A stretch of 64,000 bases of DNA from a virus: the IMG/VR virus record IMGVR_UViG_3300043419_000459, positions 37,471 to 101,470 of that record. One strand, 5' to 3'. The translations under genes were made by a program, and so were the position numbers. Positions 3,523 through 16,707 of the stretch are shown here, in pieces. Under the pieces are notes generated by a model. It was not told the DNA's origin. It searched no databases and saw only the letters and a program-made list of their open reading frames with translations. Numbering within the stretch: position 1 is the stretch's first letter; each line of letters begins with the position of its first letter.

Positions 3523-5136
3523 TTATAAAGTGTTTAAACCATCAACGATAATCTTACCGTAGAACTCTGGTCTTACGATTTTCTTAGCGTATCTAGTCAT
3601 AACACCTCTTCTTGGAGTGAAGTTAGTTGGGTCATAAACTAATGGAGTCATAATCAATGGTACATATGGTGCGTAAACTGCTCCTGTTTCGAAGAAGTTA
3701 GAACCTTTGAAGCCCATTAAGATAACGTTCTCTGTCATATATGGGTTTTTATAAACGTCATATCTGTTAGAGATTGAACCGATGTTAGTTACACCTGCTG
3801 CAAAAGATAAAGCGTCTTTACCTGGGTTAGCAGAGAAACCATTCATTGATTCTAAAATAGTTGCAACGTTTGGAGATACTACTACGAAGTTAGCACCACC
3901 TCTCATTGTTAACTGATGAATCTTGTTAGAAACTTTTTGTAATTTAATACCCAAAGTTTGATACCAAGTACTCTTTGTATAAGCTGATGCTGCCGCTGCT
4001 GATGAATCAATTGAGAATCCGTTTCCGTTCCAATCGTATCCTACTTTAGAAGACCAGTATTCAGTTGTGAAAGCATTTTGTTGTAACATTTCTAAGATTT
4101 CTAAGTCGATTTCTAAAGAGATGTACTCAGACAACATTTGAGTTAACTCAGCTTCAGCGTCTACACTATGGTATGCGTTTAAGTCTTGAGCTAATTCTGG
4201 AGTCCAAATTGCTTTTAATTTTCTTGTCTTAGCAACAATTGGTTCAGATTTCAATTCTAATTCGATTTCTGGAATTGCTAAGTCAGAACCTCTATCTTCA
4301 AAATCACCTCTTGAGATATCAGTTGGTTGTGCGTGGTATGCTAAAGATACACCAACATTCGCTAAGTTTGATAAACCTGTTGCAGCTACTACGAACTCAA
4401 CATTTGAACCATTCTTAGTTGTGTATTGAGGGAAATATCCAGTTACAGAACCAGTCAATAAAGTTGGTTCGAAAGCTCTTACACCATTGAAATCAGCGTC
4501 AGCTGGTAATGCAACTACAACTTTCTTCAAAGTGTTACCTGCAAAAGATGCAGAAACTGAACCTGAAGATAAATCGTAATCAATATCTGCTAAAGATGCA
4601 GAAGCAAAAGTTGCAGTAATTGCTGCAGTTTTGTTATTGATTGTGTATCCAAATCTACCTGCACCATATAAACCACCTTCTGCTACTTGAGTAGAACCTA
4701 ATTTGTTACCTGCTGGAGATAAAGAATCTTTACCAAATTCACCACCATTACCGAATAATGAATTGTTTTGGAAAGACGGATTACCTGCTACATCGGTACC
4801 ATATTTAAAGTCCATATAGAAGATAAGACCTGAAGGTAGGTTCATTGGTTGTACAGAAACGAATTCTTTAGAAGCAATGCTTCCGAATACTCTTCTTACC
4901 AATGGTAACGCTACACCAGCCCACTCTTCAGAACCTGCAGATGTACCTGTTCTTGTAGCTTCATCTAATAATTGTTTTGCTTGGTTTTCTAACATTACTG
5001 CCATACCATGCTTTGCTGTTTCAGAACCTGCGTTCTCTAACAAGCCTGTTTTTTCCCACTTAGCTTTCAAACCTCTTGTTTGCTCAAGCATTACTGATTG
5101 AGGGTTTGCGCCAGTCATAATTTGTTTTAAGTCCAT
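3523..5136 (-). CDS. 23: Major capsid protein (T4 gp23-like)
   Basis: A 537-aa protein of the size of T4 gp23 (521 aa), directly following protease and scaffold genes as in T4. The N-terminus (residues 1-60) is a hydrophilic helical segment likely removed by the gp21-type protease. Then come SEEWAGVALPLVRRVFGSI (about 69-87) and VQPMNLPSGLIFYMDFKYG (about 95-113), the hallmark start of gp23 proteins, where 'VQPM-x-x-P-x-G-h-h-F' is strongly conserved. The C-terminal part includes KLKAIWTPELAQDLNAYH (about 309-326) and YAPYVPLIMTPLVYDPTNFTPRRG (from about 488), also typical of the HK97-fold T4 capsid family. There is no Shine-Dalgarno sequence; the leader is A-rich. A strong terminator follows. 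This is the most secure call in the head module. Confidence 0.95.
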   Translation of the reverse strand: MDLKQIMTGANPQSVMLEQTRGLKAKWEKTGLLENAGSETAKHGMAVMLENQAKQLLDEATRTGTSAGSEEWAGVALPLVRRVFGSIASKEFVSVQPMNLPSGLIFYMDFKYGTDVAGNPSFQNNSLFGNGGEFGKDSLSPAGNKLGSTQVAEGGLYGAGRFGYTINNKTAAITATFASASLADIDYDLSSGSVSASFAGNTLKKVVVALPADADFNGVRAFEPTLLTGSVTGYFPQYTTKNGSNVEFVVAATGLSNLANVGVSLAYHAQPTDISRGDFEDRGSDLAIPEIELELKSEPIVAKTRKLKAIWTPELAQDLNAYHSVDAEAELTQMLSEYISLEIDLEILEMLQQNAFTTEYWSSKVGYDWNGNGFSIDSSAAAASAYTKSTWYQTLGIKLQKVSNKIHQLTMRGGANFVVVSPNVATILESMNGFSANPGKDALSFAAGVTNIGSISNRYDVYKNPYMTENVILMGFKGSNFFETGAVYAPYVPLIMTPLVYDPTNFTPRRGVMTRYAKKIVRPEFYGKIIVDGLNTL

Positions 5137-5159: not shown

Positions 5160-6371
5160 TTATTTAATAATACCTGCTAATTTCTTAAATCTGTCGGAGA
5201 AATTTGTAGATTCAGCAATTACTTGCTTAGCTGCTGCAGGCTTAGTTGATTTTGTTACTTTGCTTGCAATACCTTCAGAAATAGATTTTTTAGTAGATTT
5301 GTTAGATGTGTATTTGAAATTCTCTGCTAATGTAGAGTATACCAATTTCACTTCTCTAACTGAATTTGTTCTATCTAAAGTTTCAATCACTTTCACTTTT
5401 TGTTCGTTAGTCATGTTGTGTGCTCTAAATAATTTGTTTGCGAATAATAACTTAGCGTTTAATAAGTTTACTTCGTTGATAGTTTTTTGAAGAGATTTGA
5501 TAGTTTTGTAAGCTTCGTTAAGTTCTTTTTCTTTTTCTTCCTTATCTTCTTCTTCTTTAACTACATCTTCATCATCTTTCATGTCCTTTTCCATTTCACG
5601 AAGAATTTCTTCTAAGTCGATTACATCGTCTTTTTTCTCATCATCAGCTTCTTCGTTAGTAGCTTCTTTTTCCTTATCGGTTTCGTCAGCTTCTTCGTTT
5701 TTAGCTTCTTTTTCATCATCACCATCTTCAGCTTCATACATAGATGATTCTTCTTCGTCAGAATCTTCACCTTCTAATTGAGCTTCTAATTCTCTGATGA
5801 TTGCTTCTAAGTCCATATCATCTTTCGACTCTTCGTCATCAGAATCCATATCCATAGAATCTTCAGAATCCATATCCATGTCATCCATGTCCATTTCTTC
5901 GTCATCTCCCATTTCTTCTTCAGAATCTTCTCCTTCTAATTCTGCCAATCTAGCTTTCAATTCTGCAATTTCTGCATCTTTGTCATCTTTTTTGTCAGCA
6001 AAAGGATTTTCTTCTTCAGAAATGTCTGCTACTTTCTTATAGTCAGTACCAGCTTGTTCAGGTTTACCACTATCTTGCTTTACACCAACTGATAAATCAG
6101 TCATTGCATCTAAGTTTGGTTGTGCACCTGGAGTCTCAGCGTATCCTGCGTCTACTTTAGACCCGATACCTGTTGAATCTAACTCTTCATTTTTCATTTC
6201 ATCATCTTTAACTTCTTGTTCTTCTGCTTCTGCTCTCATTTTTTGAGACAAAATAGATTGAAGTCTAGGAGTGAAAGCTTCTTCAAGAGCGATTTTTGCG
6301 TTTGCTAAAGCTGTTTCTTTAACTGCTTTGGCATCAGCGATTGCTTCTTTCAATAATTTTGAATTTGCCAT
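5160..6371 (-). CDS. 22: Prohead core scaffolding protein (T4 gp22-like), highly acidic
   Basis: A 403-aa protein lying directly upstream of the major capsid gene, the T4 position of gp22. Residues 1-50 form a helix rich in Ala, Lys and Glu. Residues about 110-275 are low-complexity acidic sequence (runs of Glu/Asp with Met and Ser) expected of a disordered core protein. The C-terminal 110 residues (LLNAKLLFANKLFRAHNMTN, then NSVREVKLVYSTLAENFK) match the helical C-terminal module seen in gp22 proteins of cyanophage and far-T4 groups. It assembles the prohead core and is degraded by the gp21 protease. The acidic block is longer than in T4 gp22 (269 aa). A 184-nt untranslated stretch precedes it, unusual in this compact genome. 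Confidence 0.85.
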   Translation of the reverse strand: MANSKLLKEAIADAKAVKETALANAKIALEEAFTPRLQSILSQKMRAEAEEQEVKDDEMKNEELDSTGIGSKVDAGYAETPGAQPNLDAMTDLSVGVKQDSGKPEQAGTDYKKVADISEEENPFADKKDDKDAEIAELKARLAELEGEDSEEEMGDDEEMDMDDMDMDSEDSMDMDSDDEESKDDMDLEAIIRELEAQLEGEDSDEEESSMYEAEDGDDEKEAKNEEADETDKEKEATNEEADDEKKDDVIDLEEILREMEKDMKDDEDVVKEEEDKEEKEKELNEAYKTIKSLQKTINEVNLLNAKLLFANKLFRAHNMTNEQKVKVIETLDRTNSVREVKLVYSTLAENFKYTSNKSTKKSISEGIASKVTKSTKPAAAKQVIAESTNFSDRFKKLAGIIK

Positions 6372-6537
6372 CTTTTTTCCTTAAATTTTGTTGTGAAGTT
6401 ATTCTTGTAGGGAACTCCAATGTAATTATGTTGATTGTTCGGTCACACCTTATAGAGAAGGGTATTCATTAATCAACTATGTCTTATAATCTCATAATAA
6501 AAATGAGATATTTGATAATATATATCTAAATTTTTTA
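6372..6537 (-). promoter_or_regulatory. Structured leader and possible promoter of the scaffold-capsid operon
   Basis: A non-coding gap between bS21 and the scaffold gene, in a genome where most gaps are under 30 nt. A long-range inverted repeat GTTGATT (6430-6436) / AATCAAC (6471-6477) encloses a smaller stem ACCTT/AAGGGT (6447-6451 / 6458-6463, one G-T pair). A second 7-bp stem ATCTCAT/ATGAGAT lies at 6489-6495 / 6503-6509. AATATATAT at 6517-6525 is a two-mismatch relative of the window promoter motif. No open frame of note is present. A regulated 5' UTR is plausible; no known riboswitch class was recognised. Confidence 0.4.
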
Positions 6538-6555
6538 GAAAACTAAAGAAAACTA
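6538..6555 (+). repeat. Two phased GAAAACTA direct repeats (candidate operator)
   Basis: GAAAACTA occurs at 6538-6545 and 6548-6555, exactly 10 bp apart. The 16-mer AAACTAAAGAAAACTA at 6540-6555 is identical to 49831-49846 in front of the ribbon-helix-helix gene. It ends at the stop codon of bS21 and lies upstream of the scaffold-capsid leader. Protein binding is inference. Confidence 0.4.
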
Positions 6556-6732
6556 CTAAAATAGTTTGTTTTTTCTTATAGTTTCTTCTTTTTGTAAACG
6601 TTTTCTTACCGAAGGCTTAGTAAAATTTTTTCTATCCCTAAGTTCTTCTATTTGTTTTGTGGCCTGAACTTTCTTTTTATATTCCTTTAATGCCCACTCT
6701 ATGTTTCCGTTTTTAACACTAACTATTAACAT
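6556..6732 (-). CDS. rpsU: Ribosomal protein bS21, phage-encoded
   Basis: A 58-aa basic protein read from ATG 6732 to TAG 6556. The order of features matches bS21: a short N-terminal strand (MLIVSVKNG), a helix IEWALKEYKKKVQATKQIEE, then LRDRKNFTKPSVRKRLQKEE, whose central 'R-x-F-x-KPS-x-R-R/K-x' block is the family signature. The basic tail is ETIRKNKLF. Length and sequence are close to Bacteroidota bS21. In bacteria bS21 sits at the 30S platform by the 3' end of 16S rRNA and influences mRNA binding. The gene lies 4 nt after a ferritin-like gene inside the head module and precedes the scaffold gene. It lacks a Shine-Dalgarno sequence. Phage-borne bS21 genes are known in other large phages; incorporation into host ribosomes here is inferred. 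Confidence 0.9.
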   Translation of the reverse strand: MLIVSVKNGNIEWALKEYKKKVQATKQIEELRDRKNFTKPSVRKRLQKEETIRKNKLF

Positions 6733-6736
6733 TCTT

Positions 6737-7108
6737 CTATTGTAAATTAACCAATTTGTATTTTGTTGAGTATAGTAAAGTTACAATCGTATCTATATCG
6801 TTTTGTAACCAACTCATTTGTAATTTTTCTTCTTGTCTTAATTTTGTAACTGCTACAATCAATTTATCAAAATATGCAATTACATTTTTAATATCATTAT
6901 TTGTATCCAAACCACTAACAGGTTGTAATTTAATTAAACCATATTGTCCTTGATATGCTTCAACTAATCCGTCCAATATTCCACCAATTGAATCGTAATA
7001 ATTTCCCAATGCCAAATGTGCAGATAGTGCACCTATACCTTTAACTCCTAAATGAAATGAATGCGCCTGCGTTCTACTATGTAATAATAATGATGCTAAT
7101 TGTTCCAT
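6737..7108 (-). CDS. Small helical protein, Dps/ferritin-like fold suspected
   Basis: A 123-aa all-helical protein. LLLHSRTQAHSFHLGVKGIG (7-26), SAHLALGNYYDSIGGILDGL (29-48) and VEAYQGQYG (49-57) resemble the first two helices of a phage protein family related to Dps/ferritin-like four-helix bundles, where 'H-x-x-x-H' and 'H-x-AL-x-x-YYD' residues occur. Whether metal is bound is not clear, because a full ferroxidase set is not evident. It is the first of three small genes sitting between the surface-repeat pair and bS21, coupled with no gap to the 142-aa gene upstream. The function in the phage is unknown; a structural or scaffold-associated role is equally possible. Confidence 0.45.
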   Translation of the reverse strand: MEQLASLLLHSRTQAHSFHLGVKGIGALSAHLALGNYYDSIGGILDGLVEAYQGQYGLIKLQPVSGLDTNNDIKNVIAYFDKLIVAVTKLRQEEKLQMSWLQNDIDTIVTLLYSTKYKLVNLQ

Positions 7109-7537
7109 TTATTTGCAAGTTTTACATTCTTGTAATCCCAATCTTTGTTTCATTACTTCTTCGGATAAATCCGCTATCTCAAAGTATCTACCCAATACGT
7201 GACCCATATCTTCATAAAGTGCTTCCAATCTTTGTTGTTGAGATTGAGCTTCTACTGCTTCTTTTTCGAATGCGGTTTGTAATTTCTTTAACTCACTCAT
7301 ATTTCTTTTAATAGTCACTCTATCAAACCAATCACCACCTTCTCTCAAAGTATATTCTTGTGCAGCGTCTGCGATTCCACCCAATGTTTCTGCGATTTGC
7401 ATAATATCGGATTTTCTACTCATACCTTCTCTATGTTGGTTATAAGTTGAAATAATTTCTAAAAAGTGTTTTTTCAATTCCGTTGGTAATTGTTCAAACT
7501 CTTCGGTTTCTTTTAATAAATCTCTTAACTTTAACAT
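7109..7537 (-). CDS. Hypothetical helical protein in the head module
   Basis: A 142-aa protein I do not recognise. It is hydrophilic and mainly helical. Residues about 80-125 (NMSELKKLQTAFEKEAVEAQ and on) suggest a coiled coil, and it ends in CKTCK, a lone CxxC pair. There is no signal peptide or membrane segment. It abuts the ferritin-like gene (stop directly before its start) and follows an 83-aa gene by 3 nt, so the three are one transcription unit. The location between capsid protease and scaffold suggests a minor head or core component, but this is only positional. Confidence 0.55.
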   Translation of the reverse strand: MLKLRDLLKETEEFEQLPTELKKHFLEIISTYNQHREGMSRKSDIMQIAETLGGIADAAQEYTLREGGDWFDRVTIKRNMSELKKLQTAFEKEAVEAQSQQQRLEALYEDMGHVLGRYFEIADLSEEVMKQRLGLQECKTCK

Positions 7538-9156: not shown

Positions 9157-9747
9157 TTAGTTTAATTCTATTATAATTTCTCTCATTAAATCTTGTGACT
9201 TACACCACTTACCACATTCCTCTGCTACTTTTGCCCATTGTTTTGATTCGTTCATAGGAGCCATAAATGCACCATGTGTTGATGGGTTGGATACAAAGTC
9301 CCAACCAACCAATTCGAAGTCTTCCTGAACCATTAATGTACCATCATTGAGTTCTTTTACTGAACCCAATCCTCTACTACTAATACCCAAACGAATATTG
9401 TTTTTCAATAATTCTTTTAATATATTTCCAGATGGAGTTGAAAGTATTTCTACCACACCACATACATCATCCCCTTCCCAATAGATTTCTCTAATGTTAT
9501 GAGATACATTTTTTAAATTGATTACGGGAGAATCTGGATGGTCTAACTCACCAAGAGCTCTTCTTTCCTTAATAAGTTGTTCGTATTTCTTACACTCTCT
9601 TTCTAAGATTTCTTTTGGATATCTTCTATGATTTTGATTTGGAGCACCTGCTCTTTGTAGGATTCCCTTAACTAAATAAGTTCCGTTTTCTTCTTGTTGA
9701 AGTTTTGCTTCAAACAGATGGGTTTCTATTAATAATCCTTTATTCAT
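9157..9747 (-). CDS. 21: Prohead core protease (T4 gp21-like, peptidase family S77)
   Basis: A 196-aa protein, near T4 gp21 length (212 aa). The catalytic motifs of the herpesvirus-assemblin-like S77 family are visible: GELDHP with His70 and GISSRG with Ser123/Ser124, followed by FELVGWDFVSNPST, where the conserved 'D-h-V-x-x-P-x' block lies. NQNHRRYPKEIL near residue 38 is the conserved 'N-x-N-x-R-x-Y' region upstream of the His. It cleaves scaffold and capsid N-termini during maturation. It is encoded between the portal and the scaffold/capsid genes as in T4, and its start overlaps the stop of the preceding gene by 1 nt (translational coupling). Confidence 0.93.
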   Translation of the reverse strand: MNKGLLIETHLFEAKLQQEENGTYLVKGILQRAGAPNQNHRRYPKEILERECKKYEQLIKERRALGELDHPDSPVINLKNVSHNIREIYWEGDDVCGVVEILSTPSGNILKELLKNNIRLGISSRGLGSVKELNDGTLMVQEDFELVGWDFVSNPSTHGAFMAPMNESKQWAKVAEECGKWCKSQDLMREIIIELN

Positions 9748-12221: not shown

Positions 12222-13967
12222 TTACTCTTTTGTTAAATCTTCGGTTAAAATAGTCTTTTTATTACCATTCATATCTTTAAATATTTCTAAATATGAATTT
12301 TTTCTTGGTTTATATTTTACCGAACCTTCTTTTGCCTTTAAAGTTTTAATACCCAATGGGTCTCTACCCTCTGGGTGGTCATCTTTACCATATCTAACAG
12401 GGTCTTTTGGTCTACCTACATTGCCATCTTCTTCCAATTCCGTTTTTAATCTATTTAATTCTTCTTCTACATTTGTGGGGCCGTCTGTTCCGGTTTCTTT
12501 TGCAGGGTCAACACCTTGTGTTTCAATTGATGTTAAACGGAATTGTTGTTTTGTATCATCTAATACTGCAAGTGTTAATTCATCTTGCTCATCTTTCGCC
12601 ATTTTCATTACCGTCTCATACATCCATTCTTTAGAAAACATTTTTGTTTGTTGCATTTGTTGAATCAATGCTACTTTTGAAGTATACAATTCAACTTGCT
12701 CTTGCTCATATATTTTAGATGGAATGGTCAATTCTATTGTAAAATTAGTTAAATTATCATCATCTATACCTTGTGCGTATAAATGAACAATTGCAATTTT
12801 AGTTAATTCCGAAATTAAAACTCTTTGAATTCTTTCAATTGTTTTTGCAAATCTAACATCCATTGAAGCAAGAGTTGCTTTACCATTCGTTTCTTCTTCA
12901 TATCCTAAATATGCTTTTGGAATTTTTAAAGCTGACATCAATTTACCCTTTAAGTAGTTAATATCATCAATCATATTATATTCCAATCCCTTTAAGGTAT
13001 CAATTGAAGTACCATTATCATTACCACGTACAGGCATATAGTAATCTTCAATTAAATTTTGTACATTATACTTTAAATTATATTCACCGGTTCTCTCATC
13101 AACGAAAGGAACTTTTTTCGATGCGTTGATAATTTTCTGCATGTAATTGTCTACCTCATTTGGTGGAATATTGCCTACATCAATTTTAAATATTCTTTTT
13201 TCAGGAGCTCTCATTACTCTATGAATCAACATAGCATCCTCCATCAACATTAATTGTTTCCAAACTCGTCTCGCACCTTCAATCATAGATTTACCATATG
13301 GTAAAAAGTTTGAATCCGAATTTAAACGAAAATGCGCCATTTCATAGTTTTCAAATTCTTTTTTTGGACTCTGACCATATCCACCTAATGGGTTTTGATA
13401 TGGTGCGTATATAAACTTAACTCTTTGTGGGTTTTCTGGGTCAAATCCCTCTACTCTGTTAACTTCATATGTAGACAGTGCCATCACATTAACAATACCA
13501 ATTTTTTCTGCCATTTCCAATTGTAAAAAGAAATCACCATATTTTACTAAATTTCTTGTCCAAGGCCATAAGTTAAATTCAATGTTCATTATATCATAGA
13601 ACAAATTTTCTAATATTTGTTTTACATTGTCATCCGGATGATGAATTTTTAAAACATTTCCTTGTTCATTTCTGGCAGTACATTCGTCTGCATATACATC
13701 CAATGCCGATGATAATATGGGGTCAGTATCCATTGAATCGTAGTCTCTAAACAAGTCAATTCTAACTTGTTGATATGCCATCGATGATTCCAATTGACCA
13801 GTTCCGTAGTTTGTTACTTTTAACTTTAAAAATCTATCAACTAAATTTGTTGTCATATTTTGATACTCATCTGTATCAATAACTTTAACACCACTCTCTG
13901 TTTTACGAACAATGGTATTAGTTGAAAATAATTTTTGTAACCTACTAAATACTGATTTATCTGCCAT
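12222..13967 (-). CDS. 20: Portal vertex protein (T4 gp20-like)
   Basis: A 581-aa protein, close to T4 gp20 (524 aa). Diagnostic segments of T4-type portals are present: YRQQ-like AYQQVRIDLFRDYDSMDTDP (about 64-83) followed by ILSSALDVYADECT, AHFRLNSDSNFLPYGKSMIE, ARRVWKQLMLMEDAMLIHRVMRAPEKRIFKIDVGNIPP (from about 228) and LKIPKAYLGYEEE. The 'R-x-x-W-K-x-L-x-x-h-EDA-x-h-h-YR-h-x-RAPE-R' block is the most conserved part of gp20. The dodecamer forms the DNA entry ring and binds the terminase. The C-terminus (about 480-581) is a polar, probably disordered extension. A variant promoter motif and an AT-rich hairpin precede it. Confidence 0.94.
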   Translation of the reverse strand: MADKSVFSRLQKLFSTNTIVRKTESGVKVIDTDEYQNMTTNLVDRFLKLKVTNYGTGQLESSMAYQQVRIDLFRDYDSMDTDPILSSALDVYADECTARNEQGNVLKIHHPDDNVKQILENLFYDIMNIEFNLWPWTRNLVKYGDFFLQLEMAEKIGIVNVMALSTYEVNRVEGFDPENPQRVKFIYAPYQNPLGGYGQSPKKEFENYEMAHFRLNSDSNFLPYGKSMIEGARRVWKQLMLMEDAMLIHRVMRAPEKRIFKIDVGNIPPNEVDNYMQKIINASKKVPFVDERTGEYNLKYNVQNLIEDYYMPVRGNDNGTSIDTLKGLEYNMIDDINYLKGKLMSALKIPKAYLGYEEETNGKATLASMDVRFAKTIERIQRVLISELTKIAIVHLYAQGIDDDNLTNFTIELTIPSKIYEQEQVELYTSKVALIQQMQQTKMFSKEWMYETVMKMAKDEQDELTLAVLDDTKQQFRLTSIETQGVDPAKETGTDGPTNVEEELNRLKTELEEDGNVGRPKDPVRYGKDDHPEGRDPLGIKTLKAKEGSVKYKPRKNSYLEIFKDMNGNKKTILTEDLTKE

Positions 13968-15099: not shown

Positions 15100-16707
15100 T
15101 TATTTAAGTAACCAAGTTAAGTTTTCAGTTTGACCTCTACCTAAATCCATCTCATATGGGTTTTTGGATAAATGACCAGTTGAGATAATTCCCTCATACT
15201 TATTTATCTGTGCTGAGTTTAGCATACTTTTTGTCAAATCTATTCCTTCTTGCTTTAACCTCAACGCAGTATTACGAACCCAAAGTCCAATGCCCAATGC
15301 CATAATAAGGTCATCATTATATCCCTTCATTGCTTCTGCTCTACCACTCTGCCAAATAAATGTAAACATCTCATCTATTAATCTACTTGAACGAATTAGA
15401 ATATCTTTGTCATTTATATATGTATCTAATGCTGAAATGATTAGGGGGCGAGTTTTACTGGTTGTTGAAAATCCCGCAACCATTTGTTTTTCGTCTCTAT
15501 AATATTTGTTAGACATTTGTCTTTCGGTATCAATATATTTCAAATCATTACTCATATAAAATAGATTTTGATATCCTCTATTAATGATTTGTTGAATACA
15601 TGCCCAACCCACATTTGAGTTCTCCACTACTAAAAGTGCATTATTATATTCCGTTGCCAATGCAGTTAAGAAGTTTCCAAAATCTTTTGTGTCAATTTTA
15701 CCTCTATATTCCGCAACTTGTGAACTATCTTCGATGTCTATCACTTGTGCAGTAGAATAGTCGGCTCCGTCTCCACGTGCAACGTCCGCACAAACCATAT
15801 ATGCTCTATTATAATTTGGATGTTCCCATACCCAAAGATTGTTATCAAATCCTCTTTTTTGAACGGGTTCCATTACATATGTATCTTTATACCAAGTCAA
15901 TAGTGCGGGTTCAAATACAGTATCACCTGAACCAACGAAGTCACAATCACATTCTTGTGCTGCACCTTTAACTCCTAAAATTCTTGTTTGTTCATCTCTC
16001 CAGGCCTGGTTTCTTTCTGGGTGAACCGTCCAATGTAGATTGATACAATTAAATCCATTCTGCCCACTCTCACCATCTACCCACATTTTATGAAACCAGT
16101 TACCGATACCATTTGGTGTAGATAATACGATTGCAGCACCACCCGTTGATAATGTAGATTGTGCCGATAACCAAATTTCATCGATATCTCTAATGAATGC
16201 GGCCTCATCCACAACTAACAATGATAAGGCTTCCGAACGACCAGCGTCGGGAGAACTTGCAATTGCTTTTACTTGCGAACCATTCTTCAATTTAAGGGAA
16301 AGTTTATTATCTTCTGCAGCTGCAGTTCCACCATCTCTTAACCAAATAGGAAGTAAGTCGTGCATTACTCTTACCTTCTCTACCAGATTCTTTGCTACGG
16401 TCACTTTCGTTGCGATTACCAACGCATTAAAGTCCTGATTGAATATCATCTTCCATAAAATAAATCCTGCAGATAAGGTCGATAGACCCAATTGACGAGA
16501 TTTAAGAATGATGTTAAAACGATTTTCTTTAAAATCCGTTAAACAATCTTCCTGAAAAGGATAAAGGTGAAAGGGTATTTTTCCTCTCACCGGATGCTGA
16601 ATGACACAATACTTTTTCATAAAGTAGATTGGGTCTAACGCACACTTGCGATATTCTTCAGCGATTATCTCTTTTAAGGTTTTCTTAGGTTGCCCTTGAA
16701 CTCCCAT
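15100..16707 (-). CDS. 17: Terminase large subunit (T4 gp17-like)
   Basis: A 535-aa protein with the two-domain terminase layout. The ATPase has Walker A SRQLGLST (residues 70-77; the classic variant in T4-type terminases), a Walker B LLVVDEAAF with Asp167 and Glu168, and a coupling motif LSTPNG. The C-terminal RNase H-like nuclease begins near VCADVARGDGADYS (about 308-321), with the metal-binding Asp. Further acidic residues follow at VVENSNVGW and YNDDLIMALGIG. gp17 translocates DNA into the prohead and cuts concatemers. Its start overlaps the stop of the next gene upstream by 1 nt. T4 gp17 is 610 aa; this one lacks the longer N-terminal extension. Confidence 0.95.
   Translation of the reverse strand: MGVQGQPKKTLKEIIAEEYRKCALDPIYFMKKYCVIQHPVRGKIPFHLYPFQEDCLTDFKENRFNIILKSRQLGLSTLSAGFILWKMIFNQDFNALVIATKVTVAKNLVEKVRVMHDLLPIWLRDGGTAAAEDNKLSLKLKNGSQVKAIASSPDAGRSEALSLLVVDEAAFIRDIDEIWLSAQSTLSTGGAAIVLSTPNGIGNWFHKMWVDGESGQNGFNCINLHWTVHPERNQAWRDEQTRILGVKGAAQECDCDFVGSGDTVFEPALLTWYKDTYVMEPVQKRGFDNNLWVWEHPNYNRAYMVCADVARGDGADYSTAQVIDIEDSSQVAEYRGKIDTKDFGNFLTALATEYNNALLVVENSNVGWACIQQIINRGYQNLFYMSNDLKYIDTERQMSNKYYRDEKQMVAGFSTTSKTRPLIISALDTYINDKDILIRSSRLIDEMFTFIWQSGRAEAMKGYNDDLIMALGIGLWVRNTALRLKQEGIDLTKSMLNSAQINKYEGIISTGHLSKNPYEMDLGRGQTENLTWLLK

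Follow-up and report, generated by a model that had tools for sequence, protein, structure and literature searches.

Phage-encoded bS21 proteins of a head-module clade in which a segment conserved in Bacteroidota hosts is replaced

Bacteroidota ribosomes carry an intact anti-Shine-Dalgarno (ASD) sequence that is hidden, and the ribosomal protein bS21 is part of the lock. In Flavobacterium johnsoniae, Tyr54 of bS21 stacks on A1534 of the 16S rRNA tail, and protein yield from a Shine-Dalgarno (SD) message in vitro rises 3-fold with ribosomes of the Y54A variant and 5-fold with those of the deltaC variant (McNutt et al., 2023; PMC9976891). The same bS21 is subject to SD-driven autoregulation. Phages also encode this protein. 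In 47 Bacteroidetes-phage genomes, bS21 was found in the region of the terminase large subunit (TerL), portal, protease and major capsid protein (MCP) genes, and 388 of the 900 phages with a published bS21 have structural genes no more than ten genes away from it (Chen et al., 2022; ISME Commun 2:31, PMC9723584). These authors reported that the Bacteroidetes-phage gene is highly expressed late and proposed that ribosomes exchange their bS21 for the phage version, to the advantage of phage transcripts. They also described strong divergence in the N-terminal helix and, noting that 61/61 phage proteins are aromatic at F. johnsoniae position 54, made the case that the phage protein reproduces the lock. 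Furthermore, bS21 of the Pelagibacter phage HTVC008M is incorporated into E. coli 70S ribosomes, and these produce about 5% of the wild-type amount of GFP in an E. coli system, although its authors allow that species mismatch may be responsible (Mizuno et al., 2019; PMC6375957). Likened by description, that system shares a phage-encoded bS21 with the locus described here but has an alphaproteobacterial host and sequence.

We examined a 64,000 nt stretch (the window, to which all positions refer) of a 101,470-base IMG/VR virus record (IMGVR_UViG_3300043419_000459). Our data concern the identity, context, conservation and purifying selection of a bS21 gene in this window, the replacement of a segment in its product, and the SD pattern of the phage genes. 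The gene occupies positions 6556..6732 on the minus strand, begins with ATG, lacks an SD of its own and encodes 58 amino acids (MLIVSVKNGNIEWALKEYKKKVQATKQIEELRDRKNFTKPSVRKRLQKEETIRKNKLF), whereas the plus strand within the same exact bounds is interrupted by stops. The product had been annotated as bS21 from the letters alone, and profile searches confirm that this is a genuine phage-encoded bS21. Matches to PF01165 (E=1.6e-13, 50.6 bits) and TIGR00030 (42.1 bits) lie well over the curated cut-offs of 27 and 28.95, respectively, and phrog_21469, ‘ribosomal protein S21’, is matched at E=7.3e-7. The closest relatives of solved structure are the bS21 chains of 9i5v (E=1.1e-8) and of F. johnsoniae 7jil (E=5.2e-8). 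An AlphaFold model (mean pLDDT 80) shows the two-helix bS21 fold, with helices at residues 11-33 and 40-57, and all eight Foldseek matches of this model are ribosome entries, each of them weak (E>=0.57). The median pairwise dN/dS of the family is about 0.11 (1862 pairs), which identifies the gene as one under purifying selection and not a chance ORF.

The bS21 gene is embedded in a T4-type head module, within the TerL/portal/protease/MCP region of the record, and all 85 genes that a simple gene caller predicted in the 101-kb record lie on one strand. In the direction of transcription on the minus strand, the module comprises the large terminase subunit (15100..16707; 52.7% identity to TerL of Flavobacterium phage immuto), the portal protein gp20 (12222..13967; PF07230, 237.9 bits), a gp21-type prohead protease (9157..9747; PF03420, 105.8 bits; phrog_207, 181 bits), a DUF5856/Dps-like protein that may have a ferritin fold (6737..7108; PF19174, 47.6 bits; phrog_858, 61.2 bits; weak Dps matches in the PDB at E=0.2-0.3), bS21, an acidic scaffold-like protein (5160..6371) and the major capsid protein gp23 (3523..5136; PF07068, 256 bits; 54% to immuto). 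The scaffold-like protein is of gp22 type by position and composition and is homologous to the ORF before gp23 in immuto and in Microcystis phage Mel-JY01; profile searches for family matches to it returned none. The reported position between a ferritin-like gene and the scaffold gene, among head genes, is correct, and bS21 sits in a co-directional operon of late head genes, from which we infer late expression of bS21. Scans of 6300-7200 for sigma-70-type promoters and terminators gave no excess over shuffles.

This arrangement is common among related viruses. Scanning IMG/VR with the window bS21 gave 79 loci, a scan with the family alignment gave 444 relatives of the query, and about 85 IMG/VR relatives have bS21 in the identical head slot. 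Within the window-type loci (L002-L079), the genes found beside bS21 were gp23 in 60, scaffold in 70, DUF5856 in 70, protease in 64 and portal in 42, and each head gene found is on the bS21 strand. The initial annotation had judged this placement unusual. However, the large T4-type phages of Chen et al. (our loci L163-L242) also carry bS21 in the TerL/portal/protease/MCP region, and Mel-JY01 carries its RpsU (PP395634, WWT39311.1) in the equivalent slot, so neither the placement nor the general idea of a phage bS21 swap is new. The details differ. In the Chen-type phages, bS21 lies between portal and protease and runs against the direction of the structural genes, whereas the window-type gene is co-directional and is flanked by the DUF5856 and scaffold genes. 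Mel-JY01 resembles the window in slot, strand and a basic residue 54, its bS21 being downstream of the protease gene and of a p7109 homologue and upstream of the scaffold gene, but its protein is 75 aa long and very divergent.

Several indirect but concordant observations point to a probable Bacteroidota host for the window phage, as the description ‘Bacteroidota-type T4 relative’ had implied. The best 80 of 326 cellular bS21 matches are all from Bacteroidota, the nearest cultured phage is Flavobacterium phage immuto (gp23 54%, TerL 53%), and the initiation regions of the window phage are A-rich and SD-poor. Mel-JY01 is about equally near (gp23 54%, TerL 51%), but its genes, unlike those of the window phage, use SD sequences (68% versus 18% of shuffled sites). 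Its host is thus not SD-blind, and host range in the wider phage group is not uniform.

Host-like residues persist in the N-terminal and central parts of the window protein (helix 1 and the F-x-KPS-x-R region), which can be aligned with F. johnsoniae bS21, a member of the same family. In contrast, the C-terminal segment is replaced. In an alignment of 50 window-clade, 123 host and 59 other-phage bS21 sequences, the host residues K51-A52-x-Y54-[IV]-Q56 give way to E-T-I-R-K-N in 50/50 distinct clade sequences; in the window these are residues E50-T51-I52-R53-K54-N55, encoded at 6568..6585 on the minus strand and equivalent to positions 51-56 in the F. johnsoniae numbering used hereafter. Among hosts, K51 is conserved at 94%, A52 at 99%, Y54 at 93% and Q56 at 89%, for which the clade has E, T, R and N, and K-A-x-Y-x-Q is retained both by hosts and by the other Bacteroidota-type phages sampled. 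Position 54, which corresponds to residue 53 in the window, is Arg in all 50 distinct clade sequences. Cellular bS21 proteins have Tyr in 59 cases, His in two and Arg in one, Chen-type phages have Tyr in 46/46 determinable sequences, and another phage set has 11 Tyr and one His. More distant members, collected by means of an RNA leader motif described below, also have Arg54, with the single exception of a Tyr in L507. Segment replacement sets this clade apart from the other Bacteroidota-type phage bS21 proteins sampled and makes it a clear exception to the aromatic rule from which lock-copying was argued.

In a bS21 tree the window clade is monophyletic (99/98), and its nearest cellular neighbours are accessory paralogues from Winogradskyella (93/83), although the tree is built on 64 columns and its deeper forks are unsure. 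The accessory Flavobacteriaceae paralogues (for example Winogradskyella L131/L248, L418 and L406), many of which lack an SD, keep an aromatic residue 54 (Tyr, His or Phe), unlike the window clade. Many Flavobacteriaceae genomes (L131, L248, L405-L434) have two or three bS21 genes. The strong SD that precedes the main rpsU is usually missing from the second copies, in which helix 1 is also different. Across 60 Flavobacteriaceae copies, second paralogues included, position 54 is Tyr in 55, His in four and Phe in one. A Bacteroidia metagenome-assembled genome (L132:3001-3195) has Arg in place of Tyr54 in the only bS21 detected there, and that gene has no SD. It is unlikely that Arg54 was taken from the bS21 of the actual host, given that 60/60 Flavobacteriaceae copies are aromatic and that Arg occurs in this one Bacteroidia genome. 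Resolution in the 64-column tree that includes SD-using relatives is too low for Arg54 to be called ancestral or derived.

The earlier expectation that bS21 helps to keep the ASD occupied probably fails for the window protein, from which K-A-x-Y54-x-Q is gone in 50/50 clade sequences; with the segment replaced throughout, a weakened clamp is a prediction at least as good as ASD occupancy. We propose that, once infection has reached its late stage, window bS21 would most likely take the place of its host counterpart in 30S subunits. The host-like helix 1 and F-x-KPS-x-R region would dock in the normal site, but without the K-A-Y-Q segment the swapped subunits would sequester the ASD less tightly than host subunits. 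They would then initiate relatively better on SD messages, for example that of the adjacent scaffold gene, and SD-less messages would still be read. Taken as a whole, this scheme of late swap, normal docking, looser ASD hold and relative gain for SD messages is tentative, with a chance that we put slightly below even. Incorporation, ASD release and any benefit to the phage are inferences, and the looser hold is argued by analogy with what the Y54A and deltaC changes do in F. johnsoniae. A natural phage bS21 that has the docking part but not the lock would be a testable case of viral ribosome specialisation, and the clade-wide replacement of the host segment, which is the new element here, may change which messages get translated.

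Some features of the protein speak against an explanation by clamp loss. Arg itself can stack or bind phosphate, and roughly one helical turn beyond position 54 there is an aromatic side chain, F58 or, in some members, Y57. Borrelia bS21 has Lys53 at the corresponding place, and its authors consider it possible that the ASD is still held there in a pocket (PMC10618245), perhaps a weaker one. The Bacteroidia genome with Arg54 in its sole detected bS21 is a further point of this kind. These observations favour a role of the type proposed by Chen et al., in which host bS21 would be replaced while the ASD stays sequestered, with Arg54 or F58/Y57 standing in for Tyr54; the benefit would be bS21 supply, or an mRNA preference exerted via helix 1, and not SD recognition. 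The Lys-bearing Borrelia protein and the Bacteroidia organism that lives with Arg54 are both consistent with such a role. So are the SD-poor genes of the phage and the uniform changes that the clade has made in its own helix 1 (W14, an acidic residue 18, Q24 and KQIE at 27-30), which recall the N-terminal divergence seen by Chen et al. However, it is not a single residue but the entire K-A-x-Y-x-Q segment that is replaced in 50/50 sequences, including a charge reversal from K51 to E, while hosts and the other phage groups sampled keep the segment. We regard retention of the lock as rather unlikely, though well worth considering.

The SD pattern of the phage bears on both readings. Of 83 phage genes, 8.4% have a site of -5 kcal/mol or better, compared with 7.2% of shuffled sites, and no excess of SD use over shuffles is seen across the whole 101-kb record. 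The statement that genes in the window lack SD sequences thus holds overall, with the scaffold gene as the exception. An SD-like AAGGA (6378..6382, minus strand) lies 6 nt before the scaffold ATG, and AAGGA or AAGGAG gives -5 kcal/mol or lower in 18/18 distinct initiation regions of the family. The family loci as a group show a small SD excess, most of it contributed by the scaffold and protease genes. Among the head genes of this otherwise SD-poor family, a conserved SD-like site is confined to the scaffold gene; the protease gene has one in 6/34 cases, and gp23, portal and bS21 have none. The bS21 gene in particular lacks an SD of -5 kcal/mol or better in all 76 family members, while many host rpsU genes reach -15 to -19 kcal/mol. 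Window bS21 therefore differs from that of F. johnsoniae, which has both KAxYxQ and an SD-bearing rpsU.

Several of these findings weigh against clamp loss. Most late genes, gp23 and portal included, are SD-less, so the suggestion that late messages are favoured could not be upheld as far as SD recognition is concerned. At -5 to -8 kcal/mol, the SD of the scaffold gene is weak compared with -15 to -19 for host rpsU, and opening of the ASD should free the SD-bearing host rpsU, yielding competing host bS21. Raw counts suggested a link between bS21 and the scaffold SD, which is present in 75/84 loci with bS21 and in 5/17 without (one of the 17, L069, being a frame miscall), but a phylogeny-aware test leaves five independent pairs and p~0.5, and we rejected the coupling. 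Moreover, four bS21-negative loci (L485, L496, L520 and L524) have the scaffold SD. The stronger proposition that infection would turn SD-blind Bacteroidota ribosomes SD-capable through a clampless late bS21, to the benefit of at least the scaffold message, seems to us unlikely.

The replaced C-terminal part could instead be harmful to translation. If SD-less initiation needs this part of bS21, the phage protein might poison host synthesis, and phage polysomes that are already assembled, or abundant late mRNAs, might profit. Such poisoning would be in keeping with the reduced GFP output of HTVC008M bS21 ribosomes (PMC6375957) and with a 2-fold lower yield of F. johnsoniae deltaC ribosomes on an SD-less template (PMC9976891). 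Yet the late mRNAs of the phage are SD-less too and would suffer equally, and the HTVC008M effect is the one for which species mismatch was considered by its authors. We think poisoning improbable.

The gap of about 187 nt between bS21 and the scaffold gene holds a structured RNA (6372..6482, minus strand), which is supported by covariation. Its P1 stem, GUUGAUU paired with AAUCAAC, encloses P2 (6430..6477; 6477-6471 with 6436-6430), and is followed by the P3 hairpin (6394..6419; 6419-6413 with 6400-6394) and then by the scaffold start. In an alignment of 42 sequences (A4), 99.2% of cells are paired and 9/20 pairs have two-sided changes. None of 500 shuffles matched the percentage paired, the double-change counts or the covariation score, and sliding the pairing partners gave far lower values. 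Folded by itself, the window leader is thermodynamically ordinary (z=0.27), and it is covariation only that supports the structure. Two strands, UUAAUGAAUAC and GUGACCGAAC, are near-invariant; loci were gathered with a pattern that fixes both, so their invariance arises partly by selection of sequences, whereas the stem covariation is unaffected. At least 120 stretches in IMG/VR match the leader. The 101-kb record has no gathering-level match in Rfam, nothing of relevance turned up within 6340-6760 at E<=5, and a literature search for phage scaffold leader RNAs found nothing. The leader is possibly an undescribed regulatory RNA of scaffold or capsid expression. In immuto-type loci (L290-L369), two hairpins whose sequences change yet appear complementary occupy the corresponding place, some 130 nt ahead of the scaffold start. 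They follow a TATATTTATATA-like stretch that is a possible late promoter.

Because the leader directly follows the bS21 gene, is strongly conserved and covaries, and because its conserved loops suggest a ligand or a protein, bS21 might be an RNA-binding regulator of the scaffold/gp23 message that acts in an autoregulation-like manner and not on the ribosome. The distribution of the leader argues otherwise. It lies beside bS21 in 72 loci but occurs without adjacent bS21 in 22, and a weak match (31 bits) is also found upstream of the Mel-JY01 scaffold. The leader thus belongs to the scaffold message and is not a bS21 element; we rejected it as a bS21-specific autoregulatory site, and a regulatory role for bS21 through this RNA is highly improbable.

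Adjacent bS21 was gained or lost at least 11 times, as counted by changes on the scaffold tree, and a 252,603-base record (L440) has the scaffold leader without adjacent bS21 but carries bS21 elsewhere in its genome, which indicates that the gene moves. Such frequent gain and loss would suit a passenger, or a protein packaged in the virion, that has no part in translation. The dN/dS of 0.11 and the conserved slot argue instead for a selected function, and packaging was offered by Chen et al. only as a suggestion (PMC9723584); we give a passenger or packaged protein little credence. Elsewhere in the window, a long block between the terminase-side and tail genes (22075-44240) appears from its translated sequences to be devoted to sugar or surface-glycan functions, with NAD-epimerase-like, glycosyltransferase-like and radical-SAM-like proteins.
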